DNA from: Picocystis sp. L7
Lineage: Eukaryota > Chlorophyta > Picocystophyceae > Picocystales > Picocystaceae
Assembly (NCBI GenBank): GCA_020975725.1
Contig: QXJR01000017.1
Location: 497,001 to 561,000, forward strand
DNA length: 64,000 nucleotides
Direction: 5' to 3'
Below the pieces are notes generated by a model. It saw nothing but the letters and a program-made list of their open reading frames with translations, ran no database searches and was not told where the DNA came from. The stretch's first letter is position 1, and every line of letters starts with the position of its first letter. Below, piece after piece: positions 1 through 64,000 of this stretch. Both the position numbers and the translations under genes were made by a program.

Positions 1-3000
1 CCAAGCGCCGGCAATGGTGCCAGCGTCCGGTGGTTTGCTTTCCTCCGGCTGGTGCTTAGCCAGTGGTTGGGGGAGACGCCCCTCAGTTTGCGAGGGCCGC
101 ATCTTGGTTGTGGGGGACCATACGGAAGCAGGGTGTCTGGTGCACCCTGCTGTGCTTGATTGTACCTTGCAGAGTGCAGCCGTTGGCAGTGTTGCACGTT
201 CCGCTTCTCCTTCGCTGGAGACCCGTGTTCCTGCAGGGTTGGACGGGTATTTGGTGCATTCTAGGGTCAGCAAGGGTTGGGCGCTGGCCCGCTGTGCAGA
301 GTTGGAGAAGCATTTGGGTCCACGCGCCTCGGGCAGTGTCTGGACTGATTTTGTCTTGAGTGATCCTAGCGGTCTTCCTTTGGGCACACTTTGTGGTTTG
401 GAGGCAAAGTCCATGAGCCGGTCTGCATCCCCTGGCGAGGCGACCCAGGTGCCCCATGCATCCAAGGATATTCTGTACGAACTTTCTTGGCGGGTATCTT
501 CTCAGGCTTCAGCCTCTCCCAGTATTTGCCCGGACTTCCCCCCACGTATGGGGGCATCATTGTCCGCGTCTGCTTCTTCATCTTCTTTGGGATTGTTGGG
601 TTTGCTGCGTATGCATCCGGGTCATGTTGGACTGACTACGTTTTCGGGCATGGGCGCCTTGGATTCTTCAGGCATCTGTGGGGCTCCCACCTGTTTCTCT
701 GCCGGTGTGTTGGGATCCTCCATTTGGGGCATGTCGCGTGGTGCGAGCCAGGAGATGTCCCTGTCTGTGGATGGCTTGGGTTTAGACTGCCTTTCCAGCT
801 TTGCTGGTCCGTCGACCAGTCTTGCACGTGGTTCCAGCCTGTACGGTACCCTGGCACGTTCTGGCTCTCTGTACGAGGCTGGTCTTTTGCCTAGCACGGC
901 CCACAGTTTCCCGGACGAGTTCCGCTTGTTCCCGGTTCCTCGTGGTTCTTTGGGCAGCCTTCGTCCTCTCCCGCTGGAGGCTTCCCCGTTGGGTTCTTTG
1001 CGCGTGCGCGTGATGGCTGTCGGTTTGAACTTCCGTGACGTGTTGAACGTTTTGGGCATGTATCCTGGGGATCCGGGTCCTCCCGGTGGGGACTGTTCCT
1101 GCGTCCGTTCCTCTGGCGGCGGTTTCCACTCGGTGGGCGAGTCCGTGTTTGGTCTCTCTTCGGGTTGCCTTGGCACGCACAGCGTGGCTTGGCGCGAGAG
1201 CCTTGCTCCCATGCCCTTGGGTATGACGTTTGAGGAGGCGGCCACCATGCCCACTGTGTTTGTGACGGTGGACATGTCTCTTCGTCGCTCTTGTGGCATG
1301 TTGCCTTTGGACGGCGTGTTGGTCCATGCCGCTTCTGGTGGCGTGGGTCTTGCTGCCCTTCAGTTGGTCCCCTCGTTTGGTGCCCGTGCGTTTTCTACGG
1401 CGGGTCAGCCCACGAAGCGCGCTTTGCTTCGTGGTTTGGGTTCCGTTGGCGTTTGCAGTTCTCGCGACACTCGTTTTGTGGATTCCTTCAGCCAATTGGG
1501 TGGCGTTGGTTTGGTTTTGAACTCCCTTACGTCTACGGGCCTGGTGGGTGCTTCTCTGTCTTGCCTTGTCCCTTGCGGTCGTTTTGTGGAGATTGGCAAG
1601 CGCGACGTGTGGAGCGTGGCGGCTTGTTCGATGGAGCGTGTTGACGTGAGCTACGGTTTGGTTGCGGTTGACTTTCTTCCCCCTCGCGTGGTAGGGGACG
1701 CTCTTTGCAGCTTGTCTCGCGCTTGCTGCCTTGGTTTGGTCCAGGCCTTGACCCACATCGTCCATGGCATGGGTTCGACCAGCTCTGCCTTGCGTCAGAT
1801 GTCCCAGGCGAAGCACGTGGGCAAGGTGGTGGTTCGTTCTCCTTGCAGTTCGGTGTTGGTTCCTTGGGGTCGCACGTCCTTGACGGGCGGCACGGGCGCC
1901 TTGGGTTCTTTGGTCGCGTGTTGGTTGGTGGAGCAGGGTCAGGTTCGCGTTCAGCTTCTGGGTCGCACGGGTCGCGTCTCTTCTTCGACCTCCCTGTCTG
2001 TTCTGGGCTGGGGGGGTGCGGTGGAGTCCCTTCGCGCGGACGCTTCCAGCTCGGAGGAGTGTTTGCGTTCCCTTTGGGGTGGTTTGCTTGGTTCGACTCC
2101 CCTCTGGGGTTTGATGCACGCCGGCGGTGTGTTGATGGACTGCACGGTGTCGAACCAGACGGTTTCTACGGTCCGCGGCGTGTTTGGTCCCAAGGTGTCT
2201 TCCATGCAGTGGTTGGAGTCCTTTGGCGTTGGTTTTCCCTTGGGCAGTTCCGTTTTGTTCTCTTCTGTGGCTTCCCTTTTGGGTTCCCCGGGTCAGACGA
2301 ACTACAGCGCGGCCAACGCCGCATTGGACGCTTGGGCCCACGCCCAGCGTTTGCGCGGTGGGGTGGCGGTGAGCGTTCAGTGGGGTGCATGGGCCGGGGG
2401 CGGCATGGCCACCCAGGATTCCAGCACGGCGCTTCGCGTGGAGCGCACGGGCATGGGGGTTTTGTCTGCGGACGATGGCCTTGGTGCGCTTCGGGGTGTG
2501 TTGTTGGAGGCGGGTTCCCGCGCTTGTTCTTCTTTGGGTTGGGGCGGTCAGTTTGCTGCGGTCCCTTTTGTTTGGGATGCTTTCTTCCGTAACGTGCAGC
2601 GTTCCTCTTCCTCCATTCCGGGCATGTTTTTGGAGTTTGCGGACCAGCTTCCTTCTAGCATCTTCTTGGGCGAGGAGTCTTCCTCTCTGGGAGTTTCTGG
2701 TGCGTCTCACGCGGGTGGTAGGCTTTCCGGTCTGAGTGCAGCAGATCGCCGCGCGCAGCTTGCAAGCCAGGTTCAAGATACCGTGCGCCAGGTGATGGGC
2801 ACGGAGGTGGATGCGGATGAGCCTTTGATGGCGGCGGGTTTGGACTCTTTGGGCGCAGTGGAGGTTCGCAATGGCATTGAGCGATCAGTGGGTTTGGAGC
2901 TTCCCGGGACGCTTGTGTTTGACTACCCGTCGATTTCTGCCATCTCCGTGTACTTGGAGGAATGTTTGGGCGTTGGCGAGGATGAAGTTGGCTTGTCCTC

Positions 3001-6000
3001 CCCCGCTTCCGTTGTCCCCGGTGAGATGCAGGATTCAACGTTGGAATCCTCGGTATTTGTGGGCAGCATTTGCAGTCGTTTCCCCGGCGGCGATGTTGGG
3101 GGTGCGGTGGACGCGCGCCCCCTTGATGGGATCGGCGTGGTGTTATACGAGCGTTGGGACGTGGATTCTGTTTCTACAGAGGCCCCCGCTCGTTTTGCAG
3201 GCAACCTGAGGTGCGCGGACTTGTTTGACGGTGCCTTGTACGGTGTGTCTTCCACGGAGGCCTCTCTGATGGACGCCCAGCAGCGCTTGCTTTTGGAGTC
3301 GGCGCTTTGCAGCTTGACCTCCTGCCCTGGGCGTGTCTCTTTGTCCAGCACGGGTGCCTTTGTGGGCATCTCTGGCACGGACTACGGCAAGCTGGTGTCT
3401 CTTTCCAGGCACACGATTGGTCCTTACACGGCCACGGGGGGCACCTTGAGCGTTGCATCTGGCCGTCTCTCTTACACGTACGGCTGGAAGGGCGCTGCTT
3501 TGAGCGTGGACACGGCCTGTTCCTCCTCTTTGGTTGCCACCCACGTGTCGTTTTCTAGCATCCGTCTCGGTGCTTGCCAGGACGCCCTTGTTGCCGGTGT
3601 GAACTTGACCTTAGCCCCGGACACCACGTCCATGTTCCAGAGTGCGGGCATGTTGGCCCCGGACGGTCGCTGCAAGACTGTGGATGCAGCAGCGAGTGGC
3701 TACGTCCGTGGCGAGGCTTGCGTGTCTCTGTTGGTTTGGTCTGGTTCTTCCTCCTTGGGTGGTGCGGGTGGGTTTGCTGTGTTGCGTGCCACTTCTGTGA
3801 ACCAGGACGGTCGCAGCAGCTCTCTGACGGCCCCCAATGGCCCTTCTCAACAGGAGGCCGTGCGCAGTGCCCTTCGCCTGGCCGGTGTGCCCCCGCACGA
3901 GCTGGACATGGTTCAGATGCACGGCACGGGTACTTCCTTGGGCGATCCCATTGAGGTGGGTGCTTTGAGTGCGGTGGTTTTGGGTGCCTCCTGTACGTCT
4001 CCTCGTTGTCCCTTGGTGTTGACGGCCGGCAAGTCGGGGACTGGGCACACGGAGCCCGCGGCCGGTTTGCTTGGCGTTTCCAAGGCCTTCTTGGGTCTTT
4101 CCCAGGCCGAGTGTCTCCCTATCCTCCACTTGCGCACGGTGAATCCTCACGTGTCTTCTGCCCTTTCCATGGCGGAGAAGCACGGGGGTGGTTTGGGGAC
4201 GTCTTGTCTGATGCCTCGCGAGGGCAGCAGCCTTCCTCTGGGTCCTTCTTCCCAGCCATTGGCCAGCGGGGTGAGCGCTTTTGCCTTTCAGGGCACGAAC
4301 GCCCACGCTCTGCTTGGTCTTGGCAGCACGGTCGCTTGCTCTGGCAGCGGGTCTCCGGCTGGCGGGGTTCGAGCCTGGCACCGCGAGCGTCACTGGGTCT
4401 GGCCTCGTCCCCACGCCTTGGTGCATCGTGCACCCCTGTCCAGTGGCAGCACGCAGACCCTAGAGGTACGCCTGGACAAATCCTTGGCTTCCTCTCTGTG
4501 GGACCACCGCGTGCAAGGCCAGGCCATCTTTCCCGGTGCAGGGTACTTGGAACTTGTTTCTTCCGGAGCCTTGCTCCTGCTGTCGGGTCTTGGGCAGAGC
4601 CAGTTTGCGTTTGTAGGCGGCAGCATTCCTGCTCCTTTGGTACTGCCTTCTTGGTCAAGGGACGAGTTGGGCAGCAGGGCGTCTGCTTTGGTGTCCATTG
4701 AATCGCCGTCGGGTGTTTGTCGCATTCACTCAGCAGGGCGGTCTGCTTCCTCCATTCCCCACATGCAGGGTTCTTTTTGTGCGGTATCCCAAGCGCCGGC
4801 AATGGTGCCAGCGTCCGGTGGTTTGCTTTCCTCCGGCTGGTGCTTAGCCAGTGGTTGGGGGAGACGCCCCTCAGTTTGCGAGGGCCGCATCTTGGTTGTG
4901 GGGGACCATACGGAAGCAGGGTGTCTGGTGCACCCTGCTGTGCTTGATTGTACCTTGCAGAGTGCAGCCGTTGGCAGTGTTGCACGTTCCGCTTCTCCTT
5001 CGCTGGAGACCCGTGTTCCTGCAGGGTTGGACGGGTATTTGGTGCATTCTAGGGTCAGCAAGGGTTGGGCGCTGGCCCGCTGTGCAGAGTTGGAGAAGCA
5101 TTTGGGTCCACGCGCCTCGGGCAGTGTCTGGACTGATTTTGTCTTGAGTGATCCTAGCGGTCTTCCTTTGGGCACACTTTGTGGTTTGGAGGCAAAGTCC
5201 ATGAGCCGGTCTGCATCCCCTGGCGAGGCGACCCAGGTGCCCCATGCATCCAAGGATATTCTGTACGAACTTTCTTGGCGGGTATCTTCTCAGGCTTCAG
5301 CCTCTCCCAGTATTTGCCCGGACTTCCCCCCACGTATGGGGGCATCATTGTCCGCGTCTGCTTCTTCATCTTCTTTGGGATTGTTGGGTTTGCTGCGTAT
5401 GCATCCGGGTCATGTTGGACTGACTACGTTTTCGGGCATGGGCGCCTTGGATTCTTCAGGCATCTGTGGGGCTCCCACCTGTTTCTCTGCCGGTGTGTTG
5501 GGATCCTCCATTTGGGGCATGTCGCGTGGTGCGAGCCAGGAGATGTCCCTGTCTGTGGATGGCTTGGGTTTAGACTGCCTTTCCAGCTTTGCTGGTCCGT
5601 CGACCAGTCTTGCACGTGGTTCCAGCCTGTACGGTACCCTGGCACGTTCTGGCTCTCTGTACGAGGCTGGTCTTTTGCCTAGCACGGCCCACAGTTTCCC
5701 GGACGAGTTCCGCTTGTTCCCGGTTCCTCGTGGTTCTTTGGGCAGCCTTCGTCCTCTCCCGCTGGAGGCTTCCCCGTTGGGTTCTTTGCGCGTGCGCGTG
5801 ATGGCTGTCGGTTTGAACTTCCGTGACGTGTTGAACGTTTTGGGCATGTATCCTGGGGATCCGGGTCCTCCCGGTGGGGACTGTTCCTGCGTCCGTTCCT
5901 CTGGCGGCGGTTTCCACTCGGTGGGCGAGTCCGTGTTTGGTCTCTCTTCGGGTTGCCTTGGCACGCACAGCGTGGCTTGGCGCGAGAGCCTTGCTCCCAT

Positions 6001-9000
6001 GCCCTTGGGTATGACGTTTGAGGAGGCGGCCACCATGCCCACTGTGTTTGTGACGGTGGACATGTCTCTTCGTCGCTCTTGTGGCATGTTGCCTTTGGAC
6101 GGCGTGTTGGTCCATGCCGCTTCTGGTGGCGTGGGTCTTGCTGCCCTTCAGTTGGTCCCCTCGTTTGGTGCCCGTGCGTTTTCTACGGCGGGTCAGCCCA
6201 CGAAGCGCGCTTTGCTTCGTGGTTTGGGTTCCGTTGGCGTTTGCAGTTCTCGCGACACTCGTTTTGTGGATTCCTTCAGCCAATTGGGTGGCGTTGGTTT
6301 GGTTTTGAACTCCCTTACGTCTACGGGCCTGGTGGGTGCTTCTCTGTCTTGCCTTGTCCCTTGCGGTCGTTTTGTGGAGATTGGCAAGCGCGACGTGTGG
6401 AGCGTGGCGGCTTGTTCGATGGAGCGTGTTGACGTGAGCTACGGTTTGGTTGCGGTTGACTTTCTTCCCCCTCGCGTGGTAGGGGACGCTCTTTGCAGCT
6501 TGTCTCGCGCTTGCTGCCTTGGTTTGGTCCAGGCCTTGACCCACATCGTCCATGGCATGGGTTCGACCAGCTCTGCCTTGCGTCAGATGTCCCAGGCGAA
6601 GCACGTGGGCAAGGTGGTGGTTCGTTCTCCTTGCAGTTCGGTGTTGGTTCCTTGGGGTCGCACGTCCTTGACGGGCGGCACGGGCGCCTTGGGTTCTTTG
6701 GTCGCGTGTTGGTTGGTGGAGCAGGGTCAGGTTCGCGTTCAGCTTCTGGGTCGCACGGGTCGCGTCTCTTCTTCGACCTCCCTGTCTGTTCTGGGCTGGG
6801 GGGGTGCGGTGGAGTCCCTTCGCGCGGACGCTTCCAGCTCGGAGGAGTGTTTGCGTTCCCTTTGGGGTGGTTTGCTTGGTTCGACTCCCCTCTGGGGTTT
6901 GATGCACGCCGGCGGTGTGTTGATGGACTGCACGGTGTCGAACCAGACGGTTTCTACGGTCCGCGGCGTGTTTGGTCCCAAGGTGTCTTCCATGCAGTGG
7001 TTGGAGTCCTTTGGCGTTGGTTTTCCCTTGGGCAGTTCCGTTTTGTTCTCTTCTGTGGCTTCCCTTTTGGGTTCCCCGGGTCAGACGAACTACAGCGCGG
7101 CCAACGCCGCATTGGACGCTTGGGCCCACGCCCAGCGTTTGCGCGGTGGGGTGGCGGTGAGCGTTCAGTGGGGTGCATGGGCCGGGGGCGGCATGGCCAC
7201 CCAGGATTCCAGCACGGCGCTTCGCGTGGAGCGCACGGGCATGGGGGTTTTGTCTGCGGACGATGGCCTTGGTGCGCTTCGGGGTGTGTTGTTGGAGGCG
7301 GGTTCCCGCGCTTGTTCTTCTTTGGGTTGGGGCGGTCAGTTTGCTGCGGTCCCTTTTGTTTGGGATGCTTTCTTCCGTAACGTGCAGCGTTCCTCTTCCT
7401 CCATTCCGGGCATGTTTTTGGAGTTTGCGGACCAGCTTCCTTCTAGCATCTTCTTGGGCGAGGAGTCTTCCTCTCTGGGAGTTTCTGGTGCGTCTCACGC
7501 GGGTGGTAGGCTTTCCGGTCTGAGTGCAGCAGATCGCCGCGCGCAGCTTGCAAGCCAGGTTCAAGATACCGTGCGCCAGGTGATGGGCACGGAGGTGGAT
7601 GCGGATGAGCCTTTGATGGCGGCGGGTTTGGACTCTTTGGGCGCAGTGGAGGTTCGCAATGGCATTGAGCGATCAGTGGGTTTGGAGCTTCCCGGGACGC
7701 TTGTGTTTGACTACCCGTCGATTTCTGCCATCTCCGTGTACTTGGAGGAATGTTTGGGCGTTGGCGAGGATGAAGTTGGCTTGTCCTCCCCCGCTTCCGT
7801 TGTCCCCGGTGAGATGCAGGATTCAACGTTGGAATCCTCGGTATTTGTGGGCAGCATTTGCAGTCGTTTCCCCGGCGGCGATGTTGGGGGTGCGGTGGAC
7901 GCGCGCCCCCTTGATGGGATCGGCGTGGTGTTATACGAGCGTTGGGACGTGGATTCTGTTTCTACAGAGGCCCCCGCTCGTTTTGCAGGCAACCTGAGGT
8001 GCGCGGACTTGTTTGACGGTGCCTTGTACGGTGTGTCTTCCACGGAGGCCTCTCTGATGGACGCCCAGCAGCGCTTGCTTTTGGAGTCGGCGCTTTGCAG
8101 CTTGACCTCCTGCCCTGGGCGTGTCTCTTTGTCCAGCACGGGTGCCTTTGTGGGCATCTCTGGCACGGACTACGGCAAGCTGGTGTCTCTTTCCAGGCAC
8201 ACGATTGGTCCTTACACGGCCACGGGGGGCACCTTGAGCGTTGCATCTGGCCGTCTCTCTTACACGTACGGCTGGAAGGGCGCTGCTTTGAGCGTGGACA
8301 CGGCCTGTTCCTCCTCTTTGGTTGCCACCCACGTGTCGTTTTCTAGCATCCGTCTCGGTGCTTGCCAGGACGCCCTTGTTGCCGGTGTGAACTTGACCTT
8401 AGCCCCGGACACCACGTCCATGTTCCAGAGTGCGGGCATGTTGGCCCCGGACGGTCGCTGCAAGACTGTGGATGCAGCAGCGAGTGGCTACGTCCGTGGC
8501 GAGGCTTGCGTGTCTCTGTTGGTTTGGTCTGGTTCTTCCTCCTTGGGTGGTGCGGGTGGGTTTGCTGTGTTGCGTGCCACTTCTGTGAACCAGGACGGTC
8601 GCAGCAGCTCTCTGACGGCCCCCAATGGCCCTTCTCAACAGGAGGCCGTGCGCAGTGCCCTTCGCCTGGCCGGTGTGCCCCCGCACGAGCTGGACATGGT
8701 TCAGATGCACGGCACGGGTACTTCCTTGGGCGATCCCATTGAGGTGGGTGCTTTGAGTGCGGTGGTTTTGGGTGCCTCCTGTACGTCTCCTCGTTGTCCC
8801 TTGGTGTTGACGGCCGGCAAGTCGGGGACTGGGCACACGGAGCCCGCGGCCGGTTTGCTTGGCGTTTCCAAGGCCTTCTTGGGTCTTTCCCAGGCCGAGT
8901 GTCTCCCTATCCTCCACTTGCGCACGGTGAATCCTCACGTGTCTTCTGCCCTTTCCATGGCGGAGAAGCACGGGGGTGGTTTGGGGACGTCTTGTCTGAT

Positions 9001-41339: not shown

Positions 41340-41365
41340 GCCAATAGCTGTAGCACACTATTGGC
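41340..41365. repeat. Small perfect hairpin after the ERCC6-like stop
   Basis: gccaatag (41340-41347) and ctattggc (41358-41365) are perfect 8-bp arms with a 10-nt loop, about 67 nt downstream of the stop codon. It may be a 3' UTR element, but arms this short can occur by chance. Confidence 0.35.
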
Positions 41366-56200: not shown

Positions 56201-59200
56201 TCGCGAGAACTGCAAACGCCAACGGAACCCAAACCACGAAGCAAAGCGCGCTTCGTGGGCTGGCCCGCCGTAGAAAACGCACGGGCACCAAACGAGGGGA
56301 CCAACTGAAGGGCAGCAAGACCCACGCCACCAGAAGCGGCATGGACCAACACGCCGTCCATAGGCAACATGCCACAAGAGCGACGAAGAGACATGTCCAC
56401 CGTCACAAAAACAGTGGGCATGGTGGCCGCCTCCTCAAACGTCATACCCAAGGGCATGGGAGCAAGGCTCTCGCGCCAAGCCACGCTGTGCGTGCCAAGG
56501 CAACCCGAAGAGAGACCAAACACGGACTCGCCCACCGAGTGGAAACCGCCGCCAGAGGAACGGACGCAGGAACAGTCCCCACCGGGAGGACCCGGATCCC
56601 CAGGATACATGCCCAAAACGTTCAACACGTCACGGAAGTTCAAACCGACTGCCATCACGCGCACGCGCAAAGAACCCAACGGGGAAGCCTCCAGCGGGAG
56701 AGGACGAAGGCTGCCCAAAGAACCACGAGGAACCGGGAACAAGCGGAACTCGTCCGGGAAACTGTGGGCGGCACTCGGAAGCAGATGTGTGGAAAAGGAC
56801 ACACTTGCCGTGTGAACACCACCGTACGGCGCAGAGGAGTCCAATGCCAAGGGACCCACAAAATGCCGTGTTGGAAGCACATTCATGGCACACGTTTGTG
56901 CCCCCTGAACGCTCAAGGGAGACAGCTCCTGGGTGGCACTGCGCAAGAGGCCCCATACCCCAGAAGACATGTCCGCGCAGCCTCCCATCGGACGCTCCAA
57001 TCCGTCCCAGGAACCCTCCCCAGTAGAAAGCCACATGCTCTGGAGACTGGCACGGACTAAACCCAGCATACCCATGCTCAGCCGACTGCCTGCCGTCGTG
57101 GCAGAGGAGGAGATTTCCAGGCCACGCTGAATCTTGGAGGAAGAAGCACCCAAGTCGCACAAGTCGCCTGCCGCGTTGCTTGCAGTTGCATGGGCATGCC
57201 ACGTCACGCTGTACAGGCAGTTGGATGATGCCTTGGCCACGGCAGGAGAAGACAAGGTGCGTGCGCCACCCATGGAGCGAGCCTCCAACCCACGCAGTGT
57301 GCTGATGGTACCCGACGAGCCAAACAAACAATAGTCCGTTGTGACCGCACGGCCTCCTTGCCCCCCGTCTGCATCCGGGAAGGCCGCAACGTCCACTGGC
57401 CCAACATCGCAAGGGGTAACACACACGTAGGCACGCAGGCCGTACGGGACCTTCGCCCCCCCCTCCTCTTCCATGCTGAGAGCTGCCACCGTCTGCAAAG
57501 AACAGTCCAGAACTGCGGGGTGCATGCGGAAACCCCATCCTCCATGCTCCCCAACCACTTCAATGCGACCGCTGGCCAACGCAAAATCACACGCCATTCT
57601 GCCCAAAACACACCAAAGGGAACGCAAGGCAGGGGTGGGAGGACCAACGCCGCTTGACCCTCCACGCCACAACGAGGAATAGGAACCGGAGAGGTGGGAA
57701 GCCCATGAACCGGAACGAGAGCCAGACTGAACCACCGCAAAGCCCAAAGGCAAATCCAAACGAACGCGCACAGGAGGACATTCCAAAGCACCCGAAGGAA
57801 GGACCAACGGAGAAGGAATCGAAGCATCCGTGAAAGCAAGGCTGCAAGATGCATCCTCTCGATCCCAAAGCATGGGTCCCACGCAAGAGACCAACTCCAA
57901 GTACCCGGCACCAGGGAATATTGCCTTGTCCTGCACGCGGTGGTCCCAAACGAACGAACCGCCTGCCACCCCAAGGCAAACCTCAACGGCATGGAACCGA
58001 CCAACATCCAAGGGGATGCTGCGTGAAACCAGAACGTGGGAACGCGGACAGACCCAGTGCCTCTCTCGCTGCCACAAACGCAAACGGGAAACCTCGCCCG
58101 TGCGGCGGGACGGGAAACCCTCCCCGCTGGCAAGCAAGGCGTGAGCGTTGGTGCCCTGGAAGGCAAACGAACTCACCCCACAAACATGCAAGCGCTGCTC
58201 CAAATCCCCCCCCGTGGGACCGGCCTGACGACCAAGCAGGGTGGAACCACCCGCACGACCCGCTCCAACCACGCCCACAAGGGCGGAAGACACGTGTGGG
58301 TTCACCTGGCGCAAGTGAAGGATGGGAAGGACGTCCTGGTGAGACAAACTGGCCCAGGCCTTGGCCAGACCCATCACACCAGCGGCAGGCTCCGTGTGAC
58401 CCATGCTGGACTTGCCCGCAGAGAGAAGCAAGGGGGGGCGCTGCACCGAGGATGCAGAAAGAAGCACTGCACTCAGCGCACCCACCTCAATGGGATCGCC
58501 CAAAGGAGTGCCTGTTCCATGCATCTGGACCTCGTTCACCTGGAAAGGACCAAGGCCTCCCAAACGCAATGCAGAACGAAGGGCATCCTGTTGGGCGGGG
58601 CCATTCGGAGCCGTCAAGGAACTGGAACGCCCGTCCTGGTTCACTGTCGTGCCACGAACAAAGAGAGAACAAAACGCGGGAATCTCGCTGGCCAGGTCCA
58701 CACCTTCCAAAACAAGGCAACCACAAGCTTCACCCCGAACGTAACCGCTGGCACTGCCATCCAAGGTCTTGCAACGCCCGTCCAAGGAAAGCATTCCCGC
58801 ACTGTTGAAACTGGCAGTGGTCTCCGGAACCAAGGTCAGGTTGACACCACTGGCGCAGGCAGCCAGGCAGTCGCCCGAGATGATGCTGCGAGCTGCAAAG
58901 TGAGCCCCGACCAAAGAAGAGGAACAAGCAGTGTCAATGCTTACCGCTGGCCCGCCCATGCCAAAAGTGTAGGACAGCCGCCCAGAGGCAACGCTCAGGG
59001 TTCCACCCGTTGCGTTGTAACCAGAAACAGAGGAAACCATCTTCGATGTGACCTTGGCATAGTCCACAGATGACACACCCACAAAGACACCCGAGTGGCG
59101 CCTTGCAACTGAATGTGCCACAAGTGCCTCCAAAACAACTTCCAGAAGAAGTCGCTGCTGAGCGTCCATCAAAACAGCCTCAGCCGGCGAAATTCCAAAA

Positions 59201-62200
59201 CACGAGCCATCAAACACATCCTCGCGCGGCACAAAAGACCCAAACTGTGCTTGTCCTCCCAAAGTTCCGCTCAACGGAACCTCCAAGTCCCACCGGCTCA
59301 GGGGCACTCTGGTGATGCGGTCGCCGCTGGAATGAACCAACCGACCCACACGGCCAAGGTGGGTGGACAAAGAAAGGGCGCCCACCGAACGAGACGGGAG
59401 CACGCCCACTGTACCGTCCACCGAATCAAACACAGCATCCGTGGGATTCGGCGCCTCCACGGCACCACCAACACTCTCCAGCAAAAAGCCAGCCATGGCC
59501 TGCACGGATGGGTAGTCAAACACCAACGTACTGGGAAGCTCGGTGCCCATCTTGCGCTCCACCGAGTTGCGGACCTCCACTGCACCCAAAGAGTCCAAAC
59601 CGGCCGCCATCAGAGGCTCCTCCACACCCACATCCGCACCAAGCACCCCACGCACAGACTCCTGAACCTGAGACACAAGGTAGGCCAACTGCTCCTCCCG
59701 GGAAAGGCCAAACATCCAGGACGGGGACGGAGACGAAACCCCCAAACCACCACCCGAAGCGCCAGAGGAAGAAGACAAAACCTGACCAGAACCATCCACC
59801 AAAAGGCCACCCTCCTCCGCAAACTCCAAAAACATGCCAGGAATGGAGGAAGAGGAACGCTGCACGTTACGGAGGAAAGCATCCCAAACAAAAGGGACCG
59901 CAGCAAACTGACCGCCCCAACCCAAAGAAGAACAAGCGCGGGAACCCGCCTCCAACAACACACCCCGAAGCGCACCAAGGCCATCGTCCGCAGACAAAAC
60001 CCCCATGCCCGTGCGCTCCACGCGAAGCGCCGTGCTGGAATCCTGGGTGGCCATGCCGCCCCCGGCCCATGCACCCCACTGAACGCTCACCGCCACCCCA
60101 CCGCGCAAACGCTGGGCGTGGGCCCAAGCGTCCAATGCGGCGTTGGCCGCGCTGTAGTTCGACTGACCCGGGGAACCCAAAAGGGAAGCCACAGAAGAGA
60201 ACAAAACGGAACTGCCCAAGGGAAAACCAACGCCAAAGGACTCCAACCACTGCATGGAAGACACCTTGGGACCAAACACGCCGCGGACCGTAGAAACCGT
60301 CTGGTTCGACACCGTGCAGTCCATCAACACACCGCCGGCGTGCATCAAACCCCAGAGGGGAGTCGAACCAAGCAAACCACCCCAAAGGGAACGCAAACAC
60401 TCCTCCGAGCTGGAAGCGTCCGCGCGAAGGGACTCCACCGCACCCCCCCAGCCCAGAACAGACAGGGAGGTCGAAGAAGAGACGCGACCCGTGCGACCCA
60501 GGAGCTGAACGCGAACCTGACCCTGCTCCACCAACCAACACGCGACCAAAGAACCCAAGGCGCCCGTGCCGCCCGTCAAGGACGTGCGACCCCAAGGAAC
60601 CAACACCGAACTGCAAGGAGAACGAACCACCACCTTGCCCACGTGCTTCGCCTGGGACATCTGACGCAAGGCAGAGCTGGTCGAACCCATGCCATGGACG
60701 ATGTGGGTCAAGGCCTGGACCAAACCAAGGCAGCAAGCGCGAGACAAGCTGCAAAGAGCGTCCCCTACCACGCGAGGGGGAAGAAAGTCAACCGCAACCA
60801 AACCGTAGCTCACGTCAACACGCTCCATCGAACAAGCCGCCACGCTCCACACGTCGCGCTTGCCAATCTCCACAAAACGACCGCAAGGGACAAGGCAAGA
60901 CAGAGAAGCACCCACCAGGCCCGTAGACGTAAGGGAGTTCAAAACCAAACCAACGCCACCCAATTGGCTGAAGGAATCCACAAAACGAGTGTCGCGAGAA
61001 CTGCAAACGCCAACGGAACCCAAACCACGAAGCAAAGCGCGCTTCGTGGGCTGGCCCGCCGTAGAAAACGCACGGGCACCAAACGAGGGGACCAACTGAA
61101 GGGCAGCAAGACCCACGCCACCAGAAGCGGCATGGACCAACACGCCGTCCATAGGCAACATGCCACAAGAGCGACGAAGAGACATGTCCACCGTCACAAA
61201 CACAGTGGGCATGGTGGCCGCCTCCTCAAACGTCATACCCAAGGGCATGGGAGCAAGGCTCTCGCGCCAAGCCACGCTGTGCGTGCCAAGGCAACCCGAA
61301 GAGAGACCAAACACGGACTCGCCCACAGAGTGGAAACCGCCGCCAGAGGAACGGATGCAGGAACAGTCCCCACCGGGAGGACCCGGATCCCCAGGATACA
61401 TGCCCAAAACGTTCAACACGTCACGGAAGTTCAAACCGACAGCCATCACGCGCACGCGCAAAGAACCCAACGGGGAAGCCTCCAGCGGGAGAGGACGAAG
61501 GCTGCCCAAAGAACCACGAGGAACCGGGAACAAGCGGAACTCGTCCGGGAAACTGTGGGCGGCACTCGGAAGCAGATGTGTGGAAAAGGACACACTTGCC
61601 GTGTGAACACCAGCGTACGGCGCAGAGGAGTCCAATGCCAAGGGACCCACAAAATGCCGTGTTGGAAGCACATTCATGGCACACGTTTGTGCCCCTTGAA
61701 CGCTCAAGGGAGACAGCTCCTGGGTGGCACTGCGCAAGAGGCCCCATACCCCAGAAGACATGTCCGCGCAGCCTCCCATCGGACGCTCCAATCCGTCCCA
61801 GGAACCCTCCCCAGTAGAAAGCCACATGCTCTGGAGACTGGCACGGACTAAACCCAGCATACCCATGCTCAGCCGACTGCCTGCCGTCGTGGCAGAGGAG
61901 GAGATTTCCAGGCCACGCTGAATCTTGGAGGAAGAAGCACCCAAGTCGCACAAGTCGCCTGCCGCGTTGCTTGCAGTTGCATGGGCATGCCACGTCACGC
62001 TGTACAGGCAGTTGGATGATGCCTTGGCCACGGCAGGAGAAGACAAGGTGCGTGCGCCACCCATGGAGCGAGCCTCCAACCCACGCAGTGTGCTGATGGT
62101 ACCCGACGAGCCAAACAAACAATAGTCCGTTGTGACCGCACGGCCTCCTTGCCCCCCGTCTGCATCCGGGAAGGCCGCAACGTCCACTGGCCCAACATCG

Positions 62201-63999
62201 CAAGGGGTAACACACACGTAGGCACGCAGGCCGTACGGGACCTTCGCCCCCCCCTCCTCTTCCATGCTGAGAGCTGCCACCGTCTGCAAAGAACAGTCCA
62301 GAACTGCGGGGTGCATGCGGAAACCCCATCCTCCATGCTCCCCAACCACTTCAATGCGACCGCTGGCCAACGCAAAATCACACGCCATTCTGCCCAAAAC
62401 ACACCAAAGGGAACGCAAGGCAGGGGTGGGAGGACCAACGCCGCTTGACCCTCCACGCCACAACGAGGAATAGGAACCGGAGAGGTGGGAAGCCCATGAA
62501 CCGGAACGAGAGCCAGACTGAACCACCGCAAAGCCCAAAGGCAAATCCAAACGAACGCGCACAGGAGGACATTCCAAAGCACCCGAAGGAAGGACCAACG
62601 GAGAAGGAATCGAAGCATCCGTGAAAGCAAGGCTGCAAGATGCATCCTCTCGATCCCAAAGCATGGGTCCCACGCAAGAGACCAACTCCAAGTACCCGGC
62701 ACCAGGGAATATTGCCTTGTCCTGCACGCGGTGGTCCCAAACGAACGAACCGCCTGCCACCCCAAGGCAAACCTCAACGGCATGGAACCGACCAACATCC
62801 AAGGGGATGCTGCGTGAAACCAGAACGTGGGAACGCGGACAGACCCAGTGCCTCTCTCGCTGCCACAAACGCAAACGGGAAACCTCGCCCGTGCGGCGGG
62901 ACGGGAAACCCTCCCCGCTGGCAAGCAAGGCGTGAGCGTTGGTGCCCTGGAAGGCAAACGAACTCACCCCACAAACATGCAAGCGCTGCTCCAAATCCCC
63001 CCCCGTGGGACCGGCCTGACGACCAAGCAGGGTGGAACCACCCGCACGACCCGCTCCAACCACGCCCACAAGGGCGGAAGACACGTGTGGGTTCACCTGG
63101 CGCAAGTGAAGGATGGGAAGGACGTCCTGGTGAGACAAACTGGCCCAGGCCTTGGCCAGACCCATCACACCAGCGGCAGGCTCCGTGTGACCCATGCTGG
63201 ACTTGCCCGCAGAGAGAAGCAAGGGGGGGCGCTGCACCGAGGATGCAGAAAGAAGCACTGCACTCAGCGCACCCACCTCAATGGGATCGCCCAAAGGAGT
63301 GCCTGTTCCATGCATCTGGACCTCGTTCACCTGGAAAGGACCAAGGCCTCCCAAACGCAATGCAGAACGAAGGGCATCCTGTTGGGCGGGGCCATTCGGA
63401 GCCGTCAAGGAACTGGAACGCCCGTCCTGGTTCACTGTCGTGCCACGAACAAAGAGAGAACAAAACGCGGGAATCTCGCTGGCCAGGTCCACACCTTCCA
63501 AAACAAGGCAACCACAAGCTTCACCCCGAACGTAACCGCTGGCACTGCCATCCAAGGTCTTGCAACGCCCGTCCAAGGAAAGCATTCCTGCCACGAAGAA
63601 CATGAGCGAGCTTTTAGCTTCGTGCAGGGTCTTTGACCCACAAACCAAGCTACGATGACATTCAAACGATGTGATTGACTTGGAAGCAACATGACAAGCA
63701 ACAAGGGAAGAGGAACAAGCAGTGTCAATACTGACTGATGGTCCTCTCAAGCCAAATACATAAGAAAGCCTACCGGCGGCCACACTCAGTGCAGATCCAG
63801 TTGCCGTAAAAGGTGTGATGTTGACTTGCTTCGAAGAAAGCAGATCAGCAAAGTCTGGAGTGGAAATACCACAAAAAATGCCACCATCAGATCCACTCCA
63901 TGGATATGGGCTAGTTCCATTCAAACATGTCAGTGATGCTTCGACCAACAACCGTTGCTGAGGATCAATGAGCGATGCTTCTGACCTGCTAAAACCAAA
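44242..63999 (-). CDS. Giant modular type I polyketide synthase, second gene (partial, open at right window edge)
   Basis: An uninterrupted frame of about 6,585 codons, with the stop at 44242-44244 and the 5' end beyond the window. Modules in translation order: m1, KS (its start divergent, then type B), DH, ER, KR, ACP (64000 to about 59490); m2, a type B module (about 59430-54700); m3, a mosaic module (about 54640-49950); m4, an atypical KS, DH-like region and ACP (about 49900-47500); then three thioesterase-like domains. No AT domain occurs. KS motifs are DTACSSS, HGTGTPLGDP and KSSMGHTEPAAG. Module regions are almost the same as the + strand gene at the DNA level, whereas the terminal 5.7 kb is a clear but diverged paralogue. 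The product should be a long reduced acyl chain similar to that of the + strand enzyme but with a different terminal oxidation pattern. It converges on the repair gene, about 3 kb away. Confidence 0.94.
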   Translation of the reverse strand, partial: FGFSRSEASLIDPQQRLLVEASLTCLNGTSPYPWSGSDGGIFCGISTPDFADLLSSKQVNITPFTATGSALSVAAGRLSYVFGLRGPSVSIDTACSSSLVACHVASKSITSFECHRSLVCGSKTLHEAKSSLMFFVAGMLSLDGRCKTLDGSASGYVRGEACGCLVLEGVDLASEIPAFCSLFVRGTTVNQDGRSSSLTAPNGPAQQDALRSALRLGGLGPFQVNEVQMHGTGTPLGDPIEVGALSAVLLSASSVQRPPLLLSAGKSSMGHTEPAAGVMGLAKAWASLSHQDVLPILHLRQVNPHVSSALVGVVGAGRAGGSTLLGRQAGPTGGDLEQRLHVCGVSSFAFQGTNAHALLASGEGFPSRRTGEVSRLRLWQRERHWVCPRSHVLVSRSIPLDVGRFHAVEVCLGVAGGSFVWDHRVQDKAIFPGAGYLELVSCVGPMLWDREDASCSLAFTDASIPSPLVLPSGALECPPVRVRLDLPLGFAVVQSGSRSGSWASHLSGSYSSLWRGGSSGVGPPTPALRSLWCVLGRMACDFALASGRIEVVGEHGGWGFRMHPAVLDCSLQTVAALSMEEEGGAKVPYGLRAYVCVTPCDVGPVDVAAFPDADGGQGGRAVTTDYCLFGSSGTISTLRGLEARSMGGARTLSSPAVAKASSNCLYSVTWHAHATASNAAGDLCDLGASSSKIQRGLEISSSATTAGSRLSMGMLGLVRASLQSMWLSTGEGSWDGLERPMGGCADMSSGVWGLLRSATQELSPLSVQGAQTCAMNVLPTRHFVGPLALDSSAPYAGVHTASVSFSTHLLPSAAHSFPDEFRLFPVPRGSLGSLRPLPLEASPLGSLRVRVMAVGLNFRDVLNVLGMYPGDPGPPGGDCSCIRSSGGGFHSVGESVFGLSSGCLGTHSVAWRESLAPMPLGMTFEEAATMPTVFVTVDMSLRRSCGMLPMDGVLVHAASGGVGLAALQLVPSFGARAFSTAGQPTKRALLRGLGSVGVCSSRDTRFVDSFSQLGGVGLVLNSLTSTGLVGASLSCLVPCGRFVEIGKRDVWSVAACSMERVDVSYGLVAVDFLPPRVVGDALCSLSRACCLGLVQALTHIVHGMGSTSSALRQMSQAKHVGKVVVRSPCSSVLVPWGRTSLTGGTGALGSLVACWLVEQGQVRVQLLGRTGRVSSSTSLSVLGWGGAVESLRADASSSEECLRSLWGGLLGSTPLWGLMHAGGVLMDCTVSNQTVSTVRGVFGPKVSSMQWLESFGVGFPLGSSVLFSSVASLLGSPGQSNYSAANAALDAWAHAQRLRGGVAVSVQWGAWAGGGMATQDSSTALRVERTGMGVLSADDGLGALRGVLLEAGSRACSSLGWGGQFAAVPFVWDAFLRNVQRSSSSIPGMFLEFAEEGGLLVDGSGQVLSSSSGASGGGLGVSSPSPSWMFGLSREEQLAYLVSQVQESVRGVLGADVGVEEPLMAAGLDSLGAVEVRNSVERKMGTELPSTLVFDYPSVQAMAGFLLESVGGAVEAPNPTDAVFDSVDGTVGVLPSRSVGALSLSTHLGRVGRLVHSSGDRITRVPLSRWDLEVPLSGTLGGQAQFGSFVPREDVFDGSCFGISPAEAVLMDAQQRLLLEVVLEALVAHSVARRHSGVFVGVSSVDYAKVTSKMVSSVSGYNATGGTLSVASGRLSYTFGMGGPAVSIDTACSSSLVGAHFAARSIISGDCLAACASGVNLTLVPETTASFNSAGMLSLDGRCKTLDGSASGYVRGEACGCLVLEGVDLASEIPAFCSLFVRGTTVNQDGRSSSLTAPNGPAQQDALRSALRLGGLGPFQVNEVQMHGTGTPLGDPIEVGALSAVLLSASSVQRPPLLLSAGKSSMGHTEPAAGVMGLAKAWASLSHQDVLPILHLRQVNPHVSSALVGVVGAGRAGGSTLLGRQAGPTGGDLEQRLHVCGVSSFAFQGTNAHALLASGEGFPSRRTGEVSRLRLWQRERHWVCPRSHVLVSRSIPLDVGRFHAVEVCLGVAGGSFVWDHRVQDKAIFPGAGYLELVSCVGPMLWDREDASCSLAFTDASIPSPLVLPSGALECPPVRVRLDLPLGFAVVQSGSRSGSWASHLSGSYSSLWRGGSSGVGPPTPALRSLWCVLGRMACDFALASGRIEVVGEHGGWGFRMHPAVLDCSLQTVAALSMEEEGGAKVPYGLRAYVCVTPCDVGPVDVAAFPDADGGQGGRAVTTDYCLFGSSGTISTLRGLEARSMGGARTLSSPAVAKASSNCLYSVTWHAHATASNAAGDLCDLGASSSKIQRGLEISSSATTAGSRLSMGMLGLVRASLQSMWLSTGEGSWDGLERPMGGCADMSSGVWGLLRSATQELSPLSVQGAQTCAMNVLPTRHFVGPLALDSSAPYGGVHTASVSFSTHLLPSAAHSFPDEFRLFPVPRGSLGSLRPLPLEASPLGSLRVRVMAVGLNFRDVLNVLGMYPGDPGPPGGDCSCVRSSGGGFHSVGESVFGLSSGCLGTHSVAWRESLAPMPLGMTFEEAATMPTVFVTVDMSLRRSCGMLPMDGVLVHAASGGVGLAALQLVPSFGARAFSTAGQPTKRALLRGLGSVGVCSSRDTRFVDSFSQLGGVGLVLNSLTSTGLVGASLSCLVPCGRFVEIGKRDVWSVAACSMERVDVSYGLVAVDFLPPRVVGDALCSLSRACCLGLVQALTHIVHGMGSTSSALRQMSQAKHVGKVVVRSPCSSVLVPWGRTSLTGGTGALGSLVACWLVEQGQVRVQLLGRTGRVSSSTSLSVLGWGGAVESLRADASSSEECLRSLWGGLLGSTPLWGLMHAGGVLMDCTVSNQTVSTVRGVFGPKVSSMQWLESFGVGFPLGSSVLFSSVASLLGSPGQSNYSAANAALDAWAHAQRLRGGVAVSVQWGAWAGGGMATQDSSTALRVERTGMGVLSADDGLGALRGVLLEAGSRACSSLGWGGQFAAVPFVWDAFLRNVQRSSSSIPGMFLEFAEEGGLLVDGSGQVLSSSSGASGGGLGVSSPSPSWMFGLSREEQLAYLVSQVQESVRGVLGADVGVEEPLMAAGLDSLGAVEVRNSVERKMGTELPSTLVFDYPSVQAMAGFLLESVGGAVEAPNPTDAVFDSVDGTVGVLPSRSVGALSLSTHLGRVGRLVHSSGDRITRVPLSRWDLEVPLSGTLGGQAQFGSFVPREDVFDGSCFGISPAEAVLMDAQQRLLLEVVLEALVAHSVARRHSGVFVGVSSVDYAKVTSKMVSSVSGYNATGGTLSVASGRLSYTFGMGGPAVSIDTACSSSLVGAHFAARSIISGDCLAACASGVNLTLVPETTASFNSAGMLSLDGRCKTLDGSASGYVRGEACGCLVLEGVDLASEIPAFCSLFVRGTTVNQDGRSSSLTAPNGPAQQDALRSALRLGGLGPFQVNEVQMHGTGTPLGDPIEVGALSAVLLSASSVQRPPLLLSAGKSSMGHTEPAAGVMGLAKAWASLSHQDVLPILHLRQVNPHVSSALVGVVGAGRAGGSTLLGRQAGPTGGDLEQRMHVCGVSSFAFQGTNAHALLASGEGFPSRRTGEVSRLRLWQRERHWVCPRSHVLVSRSIPLDVGRFHAVEVCLGVAGGSFVWDHRVQDKAIFPGAGYLELVSCVGPMLWDREDASCSLAFTDASIPSPLVLPSGALECPPVRVRLDLPLGFAVVQSGSRSGSWASHLSGSYSSLWRGGSSGVGPPTPALRSLWCVLGRMACDFALASGRIEVVGEHGGWGFRMHPAVLDCALQSGQLLLESGASRQSLVPTGFAGVACHVALAPLDDVVVACTPNPEGSASGELLTDFALWRRGKEPFVHVTGLRAKSMGAPRGTTAAGEVTVCADTSCLYELKWLVDVPVDLNRSTQSLGDDWQAQPCRALALSALFGVLHEAPDAIWFRARLDVANPWGSCVASLYETVGPALLGALRAFAQENASTVAQVLQTHPSNPAMNVGSLDPSASSLGLYGVLDIASTHSIARLHPSAAHSFPDEFRLFPVPRGSLGSLRPLPLEASPLGSLRVRVMAVGLNFRDVLNVLGMYPGDPGPPGGDCSCVRSSGGGFHSVGESVFGLSSGCLGTHSVAWRESLAPMPLGMTFEEAATMPTVFVTVDMSLRRSCGMLPMDGVLVHAASGGVGLAALQLVPSFGARAFSTAGQPTKRALLRGLGSVGVCSSRDTRFVDSFSQLGGVGLVLNSLTSTGLVGASLSCLVPCGRFVEIGKRDVWSVAACSMERVDVSYGLVAVDFLPPRVVGDALCSLSRACCLGLVQALTHIVHGMGSTSSALRQMSQIEHVGKVVVRSPCSSVLVPWGGTYLVGGTAAMRSLIGTWLVEHDCCSLCFAHGSPEYSKPAFGSACATSVSSVNEMEFNNMLHTHGVQNASQVCSLFFLSVVDFTGDYTDKSLSACREGIGPGLILRQSEKTLECSAFAQVVLFSSVASLLGSPGQSNYSAANAALDAWAHAQRLRGGVEVSIQWGAWAGGGMATQDSSTALRVERTGMGVLSADDGLGALRGVLLEAGSRACSSLGWGGQFAAVPFVWDAFLRNVQRSSSSIPGMFLEFAEEGGLLVDGSGQVLSSSSGASGGGLGVSSPSPSWMFGLSREEQLAYLVSQVQESVRGVLGADVGVEEPLMAAGLDSLGAVEVRNSVEGTMGVDLPSTLVFDYPSIHQISLYLLDELCVDQSVVHREDIPSVHHEVGTHPSFFLVASAVHEQRLVVHSWCKERITPVPIARWDVELSHETPRFGGFFADIESFDTILFGITPRESSVMDPQQRLLLQCCLKSLGSIQTRDVSSFVGLSATDYSTLASQLKLKLTPFSLTGSSGSMAAGRISFTFGLDGPAATIDTACSSSMVAAKFALDSLHDLSAQDALTSGASLSIVPESTAMVSMAGMLAADGRCKSMDVSADGYGRGEGCAALLFRRIAIAMDHAGSTLEIAALASVVNQNGRSGSLVAPRGPAQEELVLKALSASGKGASDISGIQLHSNGTLLGDPIEIGAMASVFLAAHHDRNFSFCTVKGFLGHEEAAAGVMLLAHSATVLESRACAPVLHLRFLNSHVSKALKANRYKCNVQFPREAQAFSMENAFRMGVNSFGAQGTNAHVILEGKELNSSGTRIQSIPSPLQKQRCWLTPDFTPLQSICNVSAGLWCFELELCPCKHAVLKDLKILGSPIFSQAGMLALLSEAGKMSMSDNFSALEPALQDVSFVSQLLLDRDLSSTAKLALDGAGTVELSVPGPTVPDGTEQRTCLHGKFLLTGGSFDGSSSNDVKQADACVALLLSKDMPLHYRHQVFDLVPDPRPSSGLRQLECMIGCLVWEVKSHTLRSVGLAKVPLKRNSDTKAWSFFSKAQEQGANAVPLCAGFSCFNGSEFRHPCVATIQDTSIATMGHPDTPVSRIGASEIAGGFQQLLLELKTMNSEDRADWLEQKVSIEVCDMLGRDVDIDEPLMESGIDSRAGMELRQKMSDSLGVDLPVTLLYDYESISQIVDYLNQEIVSSLCDAEERLLTRSTVVFGDVESMPSEEGKPSKLLKTLRGSYPVRPLFLAAPGVANAQSAYFIFKSFLNWSEQPIFVLEKDNDLTVKELAICNATDILDIQPEGPYLIGGHSYGGVVAVQIALQLQEWGHEVGLVILFDTPHPLQCRAVTPDVEEVSDSEANEMMEMVLNAIGEETVGFSTRGNEWLSMEMGQRFEFFAPIWRIMRDNNMTVEEVRDQVYYVAGAVKRGDQVSDLRHHKFTARLYSAPLVCFRAFEKGACTYLDDSDDCSYPHGVAWSEIADTVEVIDVPGDHFTLLRQGNPDMSILVSALRAFLEPFGWVDSGAGEGGSPVFTGNVAPDEQEQEELSAYLAKMGFNLGKETGVTPAMPWACPLEEEPMGDEMQPLVMLNDVPVLADPPLFLVHDFSGNVTRLRLLARALEHPCVGICLGPLEELELLTTLEELAQIYLSRIHNSYPSLPYVMLGGVGFGALLAYEMALQLQAQGKEVATLLLIDDPIHLSMTEACELGHCSFFRLVEGQVSFDEFLKIMKTKRNFEEQLDYLDSIRPPDLSDYEWAEELALCAASAKELDPAWMALYPLVSNKLTIENFVYHMLENESFEGQLDFLSEQKPAKMSVQAWDGIVSQAVRRVTLTERLSNSYKPHWVFQGFTSVLSWLPGQTAGFTGHIPGYIVPGKSSQSLKWISGWQGSRADFNATVSSRSLVETRQFAGLSPDVIESTAECVAQALQCGMSEWKRFHNYTSCRMSPSLVQDETCGRPGVQDEFSYAEAFPEHQVNQKSLKYGVGRQVGIPIHTKRGSLGDMALPADILALNSMCSHVHHKNPIWMLHDEGGGLGNLAQLSNFMSSPCFGVSLSKRCMSADTMEELASFHLDAIRQVQPYGPYVLVGHSFGCALALEMSLQLKQSGEKLALVLVDGSVQRPEAYLINQPHWYALYSVVRQTSGLKLQLDDFVERMSSCKNISEQMRLSATYKPETISVNVWDEAVYSVLAKSQYFEYLALKYCPTTKFSGPSALLCSNDEYGYHFQRTNRIWCTGPMYARYLPCKHTWMLEERNLKGIADIIDLYSQEMLKQVLSELNA
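44290..45040 (-). other. Thioesterase domain 3 of second PKS (catalytic Ser present, FAS-like)
   Basis: IWMLHDEGGGLGNLAQLSNF leads into GHSFGC (Ser codon 44815-44817) and ALEMSLQLK, with candidate His in LPCKHTWMLE. It is the C-terminal end of the protein, as in the + strand gene. Confidence 0.83.
45310..46320 (-). other. Thioesterase-like domain 2 of second PKS, nucleophile replaced by Gly
   Basis: The motif aligned to GHSFGC reads GVGFGA, so Gly (codon 46081-46083) stands where Ser is expected and Val replaces the preceding His. The rest of the fold is well kept (LLAYEMALQLQ). The same Ser-to-Gly state occurs in the + strand gene, so the change probably predates the split of the two genes. 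Confidence 0.8.
46520..47380 (-). other. Thioesterase domain 1 of second PKS (catalytic Ser present)
   Basis: GHSYGG, with the Ser codon at 47149-47151, and VPGDHFTLL as candidate His. The entry segment (SKLLKTLRGSYPVRPLFL) is the same at protein level as in the + strand gene but uses many different codons. Confidence 0.85.
47500..49900 (-). other. Terminal PKS module m4: atypical KS, DH-like region, ACP, no KR
   Basis: The KS has DTACSSS (49414-49434), HSNGT in place of HGTGT (49003-49017) and VKGFLGHEEAAAG. A DH-like segment without clear catalytic motifs follows. The ACP has DEPLMESGIDSRAG. Architecture and non-standard motifs match module 8 of the + strand gene, although the DNA is well diverged. 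Confidence 0.78.
49950..54640 (-). other. Module m3: KS-DH-ER-KR-ACP mosaic with altered KR nucleotide loop
   Basis: KS and the first half of DH are type B. The DH end is the block shared with + 18226-18525. A unique structural KR half follows (KWLVDVPVDLNRST), then an ER of the common cassette. From 51030 to 50670 the KR is divergent: its glycine loop reads LVGGTAAMR where other copies have LTGGTGALG, and the middle is unlike the repeat. At 50669 it returns to the cassette, which supplies the catalytic Ser, Tyr and Asn. Loss of two glycines in the NADPH loop suggests weak or no ketoreduction, although DH and ER look intact. The ACP has GLDSLG. Confidence 0.8.
52419..52708 (-). repeat. DH C-terminal block shared with + 18226-18525
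   Basis: By eye it is identical or nearly so to the + strand block. It sits here in an uninterrupted frame and continues into a unique structural KR half, so this copy shows the intact context that the + strand copy has lost. Confidence 0.85.
52709..63590 (-). repeat. Type B PKS module tandem array, 4791-bp period, about 2.3 copies, inverted relative to 18526-30593
   Basis: Corresponding points fall at 62640, 57849 and 53058 (4791-bp steps). The upper edge is sharp: at about 63590, inside a KS, the repeat gives way to divergent sequence. The lower edge is at about 52709, inside a DH. Type B sequence resumes for the ER-KR cassette at about 52000-50276, with an interruption at 50670-51030. The array is the mirror image of the + strand type B array. 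Confidence 0.93.
63591..63999 (-). other. Divergent N-terminal part of ketosynthase m1 (partial)
   Basis: It encodes a KS segment from FGFSRSEASLIDPQQRLL through DTACSSSLVACHVAS to FFVAGMLSLDGRC, where type B repeat sequence begins. The active-site Cys lies in this divergent part and the two His residues lie in the homogenised part, so the KS is a mosaic. Base composition is AT-richer than in the repeat. Confidence 0.85.
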
Positions 64000-64000
64000 T

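Follow-up and report, generated by a model that had tools for sequence, protein, structure and literature searches.

Closest described systems

Algae possess multimodular type I polyketide synthases (PKSs) that lack an integrated acyltransferase (AT) and contain duplicated modules, and in one published example the modules are 89-98% alike, with 98-100% for the ketosynthase (KS) and the acyl carrier protein (ACP) (Shelest et al. 2015, PMC4661987). In the pelagophyte Chrysophaeum taylorii, the largest non-canonical PKS class is modular, has no AT and carries an N-terminal adenylation-like domain (PMC10366177), and giant multi-modular fatty acid synthase (FAS)/PKS genes are described in chromerids (PMC7464705). 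A saturated chain is made by modules in CpFAS1 of Cryptosporidium parvum, a long-chain elongation system encoded by an intronless open reading frame (ORF) of 25 kb and composed of three modules with the full set of enzymes plus a C-terminal reductase (PMC2995488, PMC6568194). The locus considered here is a 64-kb window (the whole stretch of DNA analysed, 64,000 nucleotides of contig QXJR01000017.1 of the green alga Picocystis sp. L7), in which two giant type I PKS genes, gene A and gene B, represented by their 3' parts, converge on a central SNF2 gene. Its most probable interpretation, with a probability of about 0.68, is that of a paralogous pair of AT-less PKS genes that would be loaded in trans, would carry out mostly full reduction, and would evolve in concert under codon selection amplified by copy number.

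The two genes, whose modules are designated A1 to A8 and B1 to B4 (Table 1), resemble the algal PKSs of PMC4661987, as far as the covered parts of that paper go, in having several KS modules per protein, no integrated AT in the window and duplicated modules. They differ from them in that the type 2 modules of the two genes diverge at only 16 of 1597 codons, in their mostly fully reducing make-up and in their three thioesterase (TE)-like domains; those parts of the paper do not describe a long-chain line that reduces fully. The C. taylorii class shares with them the modular, AT-less layout in the part of its description covered, and the N-termini for which the adenylation-like domain is reported there lie outside the window in the present genes. 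With CpFAS1, in turn, they share the long ORF and modules suited to a saturated chain, and the original prediction that such a line is unusual, FASs being iterative, meets a published exception in this three-module enzyme (PMC2995488).

For the long-chain hydroxy acids and diols of eustigmatophytes, the covered part of PMC8511707 proposes a small PKS and elongases, with a KS-ketoreductase (KR) step followed by full cycles. Module A4 followed by A5-A7 would similarly give a mid-chain hydroxyl, although its position is not matched and the proposed eustigmatophyte system is a small PKS with elongases. The routes given for long-chain hydroxylated wall lipids of protists in the covered parts of PMC8511707 and PMC11211512 are proposals, none of them proven. 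As regards sequence evolution, the aciniform silk genes of spiders contain intragenic repeats that are 98.7% identical on average, are homogenised across loci and have variable ends (PMC3933166); genes A and B also combine near-identical repeats common to the loci with divergent ends, whereas the passages of PMC3933166 covered do not describe a codon use linked to copy number. Since both AT-less multimodular algal PKSs and a fully reducing modular enzyme (CpFAS1) have been published, the kind of system is already known, and the unusual part is its sequence evolution, with near-identical modules across two genes and codon use that tracks copy number. The combination of features was not found in the covered parts of the literature searched, nor was codon use tied to copy number found in its titles and abstract openings, which does not prove their absence.

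Two assembly lines without an integrated acyltransferase

Pfam annotation of 15 pieces from the window gave no AT family among the matches at E<=1e-3, and none at E<=1 in A2, A4, A6, A8, B3 and B4. The scanned pieces leave out 7790-12577 (A3), 18632-19925, 25872-29525 and 55000-57999, whose sequence, apart from the frame break, nearly duplicates that of modules in the scan. The Pfam matches to the KS and to the dehydratase (DH) are 93 aa apart in A2 and 91 aa apart in A6, which leaves no room for a cis AT in these two modules, and an AT hidden in the KS-DH linker was ruled out by linker length together with the Pfam result. The absence of any AT, which the original prediction had asserted and for which it had proposed a domain scan as the check, is thus borne out within the window, and malonyl is most likely loaded by a free-standing AT acting in trans.

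Module borders were placed by hand after each ACP, and each module was inspected for the motifs that mark the catalytic residues of its domains: KS Cys-His-His, two DH motifs, the NADPH motif of the enoylreductase (ER), the NADPH motif and Lys-Ser-Tyr-Asn of the KR, and the ACP Ser. The two ORF systems of the window together contain 12 ACPs (of 13 ACP-like motif matches, one falls in a linker) and 11 KS active-site motifs, four of the KSs lying within the one open frame of gene B. A KS-DH-ER-KR-ACP order, which had been claimed for every ordinary module, applies to a majority of them: the fully reducing motif set, as far as it lies inside the window, is complete in seven of the 12 module positions (A1, A2, A3, A6, A7, B1, B2). 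The claim fails for A4, in which the ER and the second DH motif are absent and the KR is intact, for B3, which has intact KS, DH and ER motifs but a KR devoid of its NADPH motif and lysine, with a Pfam KR match that covers only positions 128-179 of 180, and for A5, in which a KS and a DH are present before the frame is lost between ~18.5 and 20.0 kb.

The terminal modules A8 and B4 also depart from full reduction, as they have no KR or ER and are followed, after the ACP, by three TE-like domains. Their KSs (30720-31967 in A8, 48580-49827 in B4) keep the histidines and have in common the HSNGT variant of HGTGT, and Pfam does not recognise the DH-like region of A8 and matches that of B4 weakly (E 0.0012); a structure prediction of the A8 KS-ACP region reached a mean pLDDT of 35.5 and was not used. 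In the middle TE-like domain of both genes, Gly replaces the active Ser, and the persistence of this inactive-looking domain in two tails that are identical at 53% of residues hints at a retained structural role.

These motifs are best read as those of a modular line that depends on ATs in trans and for the most part reduces fully. Free-standing ATs encoded elsewhere would load malonyl on each ACP, and an ordinary module, if its KR, DH and ER are as active as their motifs suggest, would perform one condensation and a full reduction to yield a CH2-CH2 unit. The missing motifs predict a beta-hydroxyl from A4, a ketone from B3 and, if their KSs condense, ketones from the terminal modules, so that a chain from gene B would carry, close to its carboxyl end, the one or two ketones left by B3 and B4. 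The two TE domains around the inactive-looking one may then release the chain. The predicted product would be a long acyl chain with sparse oxygen, ending for gene A as a 9-hydroxy acid, or as a 3-oxo-11-hydroxy acid if A8 condenses, and in both cases only if A5 works. The long saturated chain of the original prediction is therefore retained as far as the mostly full reduction goes, and has to be amended for the A4 hydroxyl, the B3 ketone and the terminal modules, for which no reduction is predicted.

CpFAS1 modules contain an AT, a domain that the Pfam search did not find in the modules of genes A and B, and both 3' ends carry thioesterase families and no reductase family. These differences bear on the possibility that the genes encode a modular fatty-acid elongase of the CpFAS1 kind which has lost or displaced its ATs and makes very long-chain fatty acids instead of a polyketide. 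The fully reducing modules in long uninterrupted frames, the third TE domain of gene B, which is closest to the animal FAS thioesterase, and the modular and fully reducing nature of CpFAS1 itself, as far as its published description is covered here, all agree with this alternative, which is nonetheless unlikely given that no AT and no C-terminal reductase are seen and that some modules are predicted to leave ketones or a hydroxyl.

The notion of uninterrupted giant genes is correct for gene B, which is one open frame, and incorrect for gene A, which has a frame shift within A5 (~18.5-20.0 kb). A5 is a mosaic at 17662-20001, where the DH and the linker up to ~18.5 kb match B3 and are followed by out-of-frame type 2 sequence, and it may have arisen through an exchange that left it non-functional or through a fault in the assembly. 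The frame break would also be compatible with gene A being a decaying pseudogene and gene B the only active gene; this is improbable, though worth keeping in mind, as the remaining ~35 kb of gene A is open in two frames and has the same codon pattern as gene B.

Concerted evolution of the modules

Direct repeats in the window are spaced mostly by 4788/4791 nt, and an inverted pair of 8,904 nt, 100% identical after rounding, links gene A and gene B. No codon differs between A1 and A2 (0/1000), four of 1596 differ between A2 and A3, and A6 and B2, which belong to different genes, differ at 16 of 1597, nine of these differences being silent. Modules of the same type are more than 99% identical, also between genes, whereas type 1 (A1-A3) and type 2 (A6, A7, B1, B2) match at ~64% of residues overall. 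The statement that the modules are nearly identical is thus valid within a type, where the identity is far beyond chance, and does not extend across types. The DNA identity of the two types is 36-73% before a cassette spanning the ER and KR, rises to 99-100% over 17 bins of 100 columns within it, and returns to 55-77% thereafter. The exchange of this ER-KR cassette between module types and genes is an observation that was absent from the original prediction. Conversely, the terminal modules A8 and B4 match at 43% of residues over the KS and its flank, 58% over the ACP and 26% between KS and ACP.

Near-identical silent sites, modules common to both loci and divergent ends are the signs of concerted evolution, and module duplication within a protein is evident as well. 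The best explanation of the sequence pattern is that the modules evolve in concert through gene conversion or unequal exchange, which would copy the ER-KR cassette and also longer stretches both within and between genes. In a KS tree with 31 comparison KSs (30 bacterial and one from a viral-collection contig, out of 81 loci fetched), the seven window KSs fall on one side of a branch (100/99), separate from a comparison set that carries no cis or trans labels, and A8 groups with B4 (100/100); A5 sits on a long branch, and the rows for type 1 are not uniform in make-up. The A8-B4 pairing, taken with the near-identical internal modules, suggests that the terminal module predates the split of genes A and B and that the internal modules were homogenised later.

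The same identity could arise from the assembly itself, if repeats that had been collapsed, duplicated or polished too far lay behind the number and likeness of the modules, and if the A5 break were a consensus error. Same-type modules that are >99% identical over kilobases, and a reading frame broken in a single copy that also shows small differences in length, are what such an artefact would produce. Against it, the distinct, divergent 3' ends and the unique A4, A5, B3 and B1 start indicate at least two real genes, and the codon mosaic inside open frames is not expected from sequencing error, so that an artefact on this scale appears unlikely.

Codon usage follows copy number

Codon usage that tracks copy number was likewise absent from the original prediction. 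Copy number was taken as the number of self-matches of at least 90 nt and at least 95% identity inside the window, which gives lower bounds, and homologous codons were counted once (7,843 of 18,242). The frequency of A at position 3 is 23.0% in single-copy codons (n=5116), 16.0% at two copies (n=206), 6.4% at three (n=924), 8.6% at four to five (n=712), 6.3% at six to seven (n=303) and 0.7% at eight or more (n=582). Specifically, among codons that could end in A, those that do amount to 1176/3903 at one copy (30.1%), 33/172 at two, 59/773 at three (7.6%), 61/586 at four to five (10.4%), 19/248 at six to seven and 4/474 at eight or more (0.8%), and in log-odds this is a drop from -0.84 for single-copy codons to -4.65 for the top class. 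Copy number and position-3 A are correlated negatively across the 16 segments that have 25 codons or more (Spearman -0.85, p 3e-5).

The contrast is also visible within one domain and within single genes. In 77 KS columns that have the same residue in all five KSs and allow an A-ending codon, A occurs in 7/154 multi-copy and 73/231 single-copy codons, with a nominal Fisher p of 1e-11 for columns that are shared between rows, and over the aligned KS columns position-3 A goes from 0.22-0.24 in single-copy to 0.03-0.07 in multi-copy KSs. The seven single-copy segments have a position-3 A of 0.18-0.24, with no deficit of A in the five internal ones (0.18-0.24) relative to the two gene ends (0.24). 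Single-copy KSs with intact motifs are not poor in A, which weakens the idea that catalytic domains are inherently more codon-biased. Position-3 T is unchanged at 33%, a constancy that does not fit plain GC-biased gene conversion, which was rejected as the cause of the composition shift. In the codons of Asn, Asp, His and Tyr taken together, C increases from 37% (n=660) to 80% (n=39) in the top copy class; Phe codons show no shift to C (n=24 in that class), Cys codons hardly any, and Ser AGY codons do shift. On the coding strands of both genes T strongly outnumbers A in the repeated modules, where the AT skew per 2 kb reaches values of about -0.5; in the SNF2 stretch and the single-copy 3' ends it stays close to zero.

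A tentative explanation, well short of even odds, is that gene conversion acts as an amplifier of selection inside one gene. A synonymous change that is copied into n modules would have an n-fold effect, sites in n copies would feel roughly n-fold selection, and a weak selection against A-ending codons would thereby become strong in many-copy stretches and remain slight where the same genes are single-copy. Codon selection is preferred because the same genes contain single-copy domains that act as matched controls with presumably equal expression, with the proviso that gene A is broken and gene B is not.

A doubtful but serious competitor is a recent amplification of the many-copy modules from an ancestor that was already codon-biased, either as a highly expressed gene or as one gained by horizontal transfer, in which case copy number would not be the cause. 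Identical copies imply a recent spread, and the most-copied cassette is also the poorest in A, in line with such an origin; conversely, low A is found in each of two multi-copy KS types that are only 54% identical and not in three single-copy KSs from these genes, and A is at intermediate levels at two to seven copies. More improbable is a strand-specific loss of A by mutation or conversion linked to the repeats (for instance through recombination or RNA-templated repair) with no codon selection. It would account for the lower A at all three codon positions on the coding strands of both opposed genes and for a T-to-C shift that varies with the preceding base, and would leave unexplained why the effect in the KS columns is far larger at position 3 than at positions 1 and 2 and why Phe shows no C shift (n=24) whereas Asn, Asp, His and Tyr jointly do (n=39).

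Several observations weigh against selection amplified by copy number and against the wider interpretation of the locus. The ER-KR cassette at 899-2642 (582 codons) alone makes up the class of eight or more copies, so that the very low value of this class comes from a single locus, and the trend is not monotonic, as three copies have fewer A-ending codons (7.6%) than four to five (10.4%). One two-copy segment has a position-3 A of 0.223, like single-copy sequence, and the correlation among the nine multi-copy segments alone is -0.70 (p 0.037). The C-over-T shift also varies with the preceding base, as a context-dependent mutation process might cause, and A in the KS columns is lower at position 1 (0.17 versus 0.22-0.26) and at position 2 (0.16-0.18 versus 0.20-0.24) too, which synonymous selection alone does not predict. 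Although none of 866 circular shifts reached the observed r of -0.24, the lowest came to -0.213, and the copy track is autocorrelated. Moreover, copy number and identity hinge on how the near-identical repeats were assembled, the frame of gene A is interrupted within A5 in that assembly, and neither a trans-AT nor a loading module was seen in the window.

Genomic context and feature coordinates

The ORF calls on the two strands confirm two convergent giant PKS genes and, being open at both window edges, confirm that both genes extend beyond the window. The ORF between them matches ERCC6/CSB and Rad26 with E values of 1e-147 to 1e-141, ahead of the next SNF2 proteins at 1e-77, and on the strength of this CSB-like neighbour the window is taken as part of a eukaryotic nuclear genome. 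The spacers on either side of it measure ~2 and ~3 kb, with roughly 43-44% GC, and such a neighbour and such spacers are unlike the bacterial context of a trans-AT PKS. No tRNAs, and no RNA families at the gathering threshold, were found in the window, and NCBIfam gave no full-length name, the matches listed for the PKS, SNF2 and TE pieces being under the curated cut-offs. The viral collection contained no close relatives of module B2 or of the gene B TE tail (16 pattern matches, 0 relatives), and a KS alignment against it gave one contig at 36% identity among 42 pattern matches. Bacterial KSs were 38-45% identical among the 80 listed of at least 590 relatives, and all of the 805 plasmid records were below 60% identity.

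Table 1. Positions of the PKS modules, repeated cassettes and ORFs in the 64-kb window.
Feature	Positions	Strand	Make-up	Basis or remark
Gene A ORFs	2..18631 and 19926..36377	+		Open at window edge
A1	2..3001	+	Partial: DH C-part, ER, KR, ACP; type 1	Runs off window
A2	3002..7789	+	KS-DH-ER-KR-ACP, type 1	Pfam, motifs
A3	7790..12577	+	KS-DH-ER-KR-ACP, type 1	Motifs and comparison, not Pfam
A4	12578..16321	+	KS-(degenerate DH)-KR-ACP, no ER	Pfam, motifs
A5	16322..21080	+	Single-copy KS, DH, then ER-KR-ACP DNA	Frame broken as assembled
A6	21081..25871	+	KS-DH-ER-KR-ACP, type 2	Pfam, motifs
A7	25872..30662	+	KS-DH-ER-KR-ACP, type 2	Comparison, motifs
A8	30663..33125	+	Terminal: KS (HSNGT variant), degenerate DH-like region, ACP; no KR/ER	
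Gene A TE-like tail	33126..36377	+	Three tandem domains: GHSYG, GAGFG (no Ser), GHSFG; stop codon	
CSB-like SNF2 ORF	38376..41273	+	965 codons stop to stop	One uninterrupted ORF, not part of PKS
Gene B ORF	63999..44242	-		Single uninterrupted frame, open at window edge
Gene B TE-like tail	44242..47469	-	Three tandem domains: GHSYG, GVGFG, GHSFG; stop codon	
B4	47470..49884	-	Terminal: KS (HSNGT variant), weak DH-like region, ACP; no KR/ER	
B3	49885..54630	-	KS-DH-ER-(KR without NADPH motif and Lys)-ACP	Pfam, motifs
B2	54631..59421	-	KS-DH-ER-KR-ACP, type 2	Comparison, motifs
B1	59422..63999	-	Partial KS (unique 5' part), then DH-ER-KR-ACP; type 2	Runs off window
ER-KR cassette	883..2643	+	99% identical across module types and genes	Self-matches, module alignment
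Further ER-KR cassette copies	5671-7431, 10459-12219, 55025-56785, 59816-61576			

Implications

If the proposed assembly line is correct, a eukaryote would make long, sparsely oxygenated chains on an AT-less modular line whose modules are kept near-identical by exchange, which would bear on the long-chain hydroxylated lipids in the resistant walls of protists. As for the evolution of such genes, the codon pattern offers a direct test, with single-copy controls in the same genes, of whether concerted evolution multiplies weak selection. Should this amplification be real, giant repeat genes would amount to natural experiments on how dosage affects codon selection, and how far the codons have been purified may reveal for how long and how broadly the modules have been homogenised.

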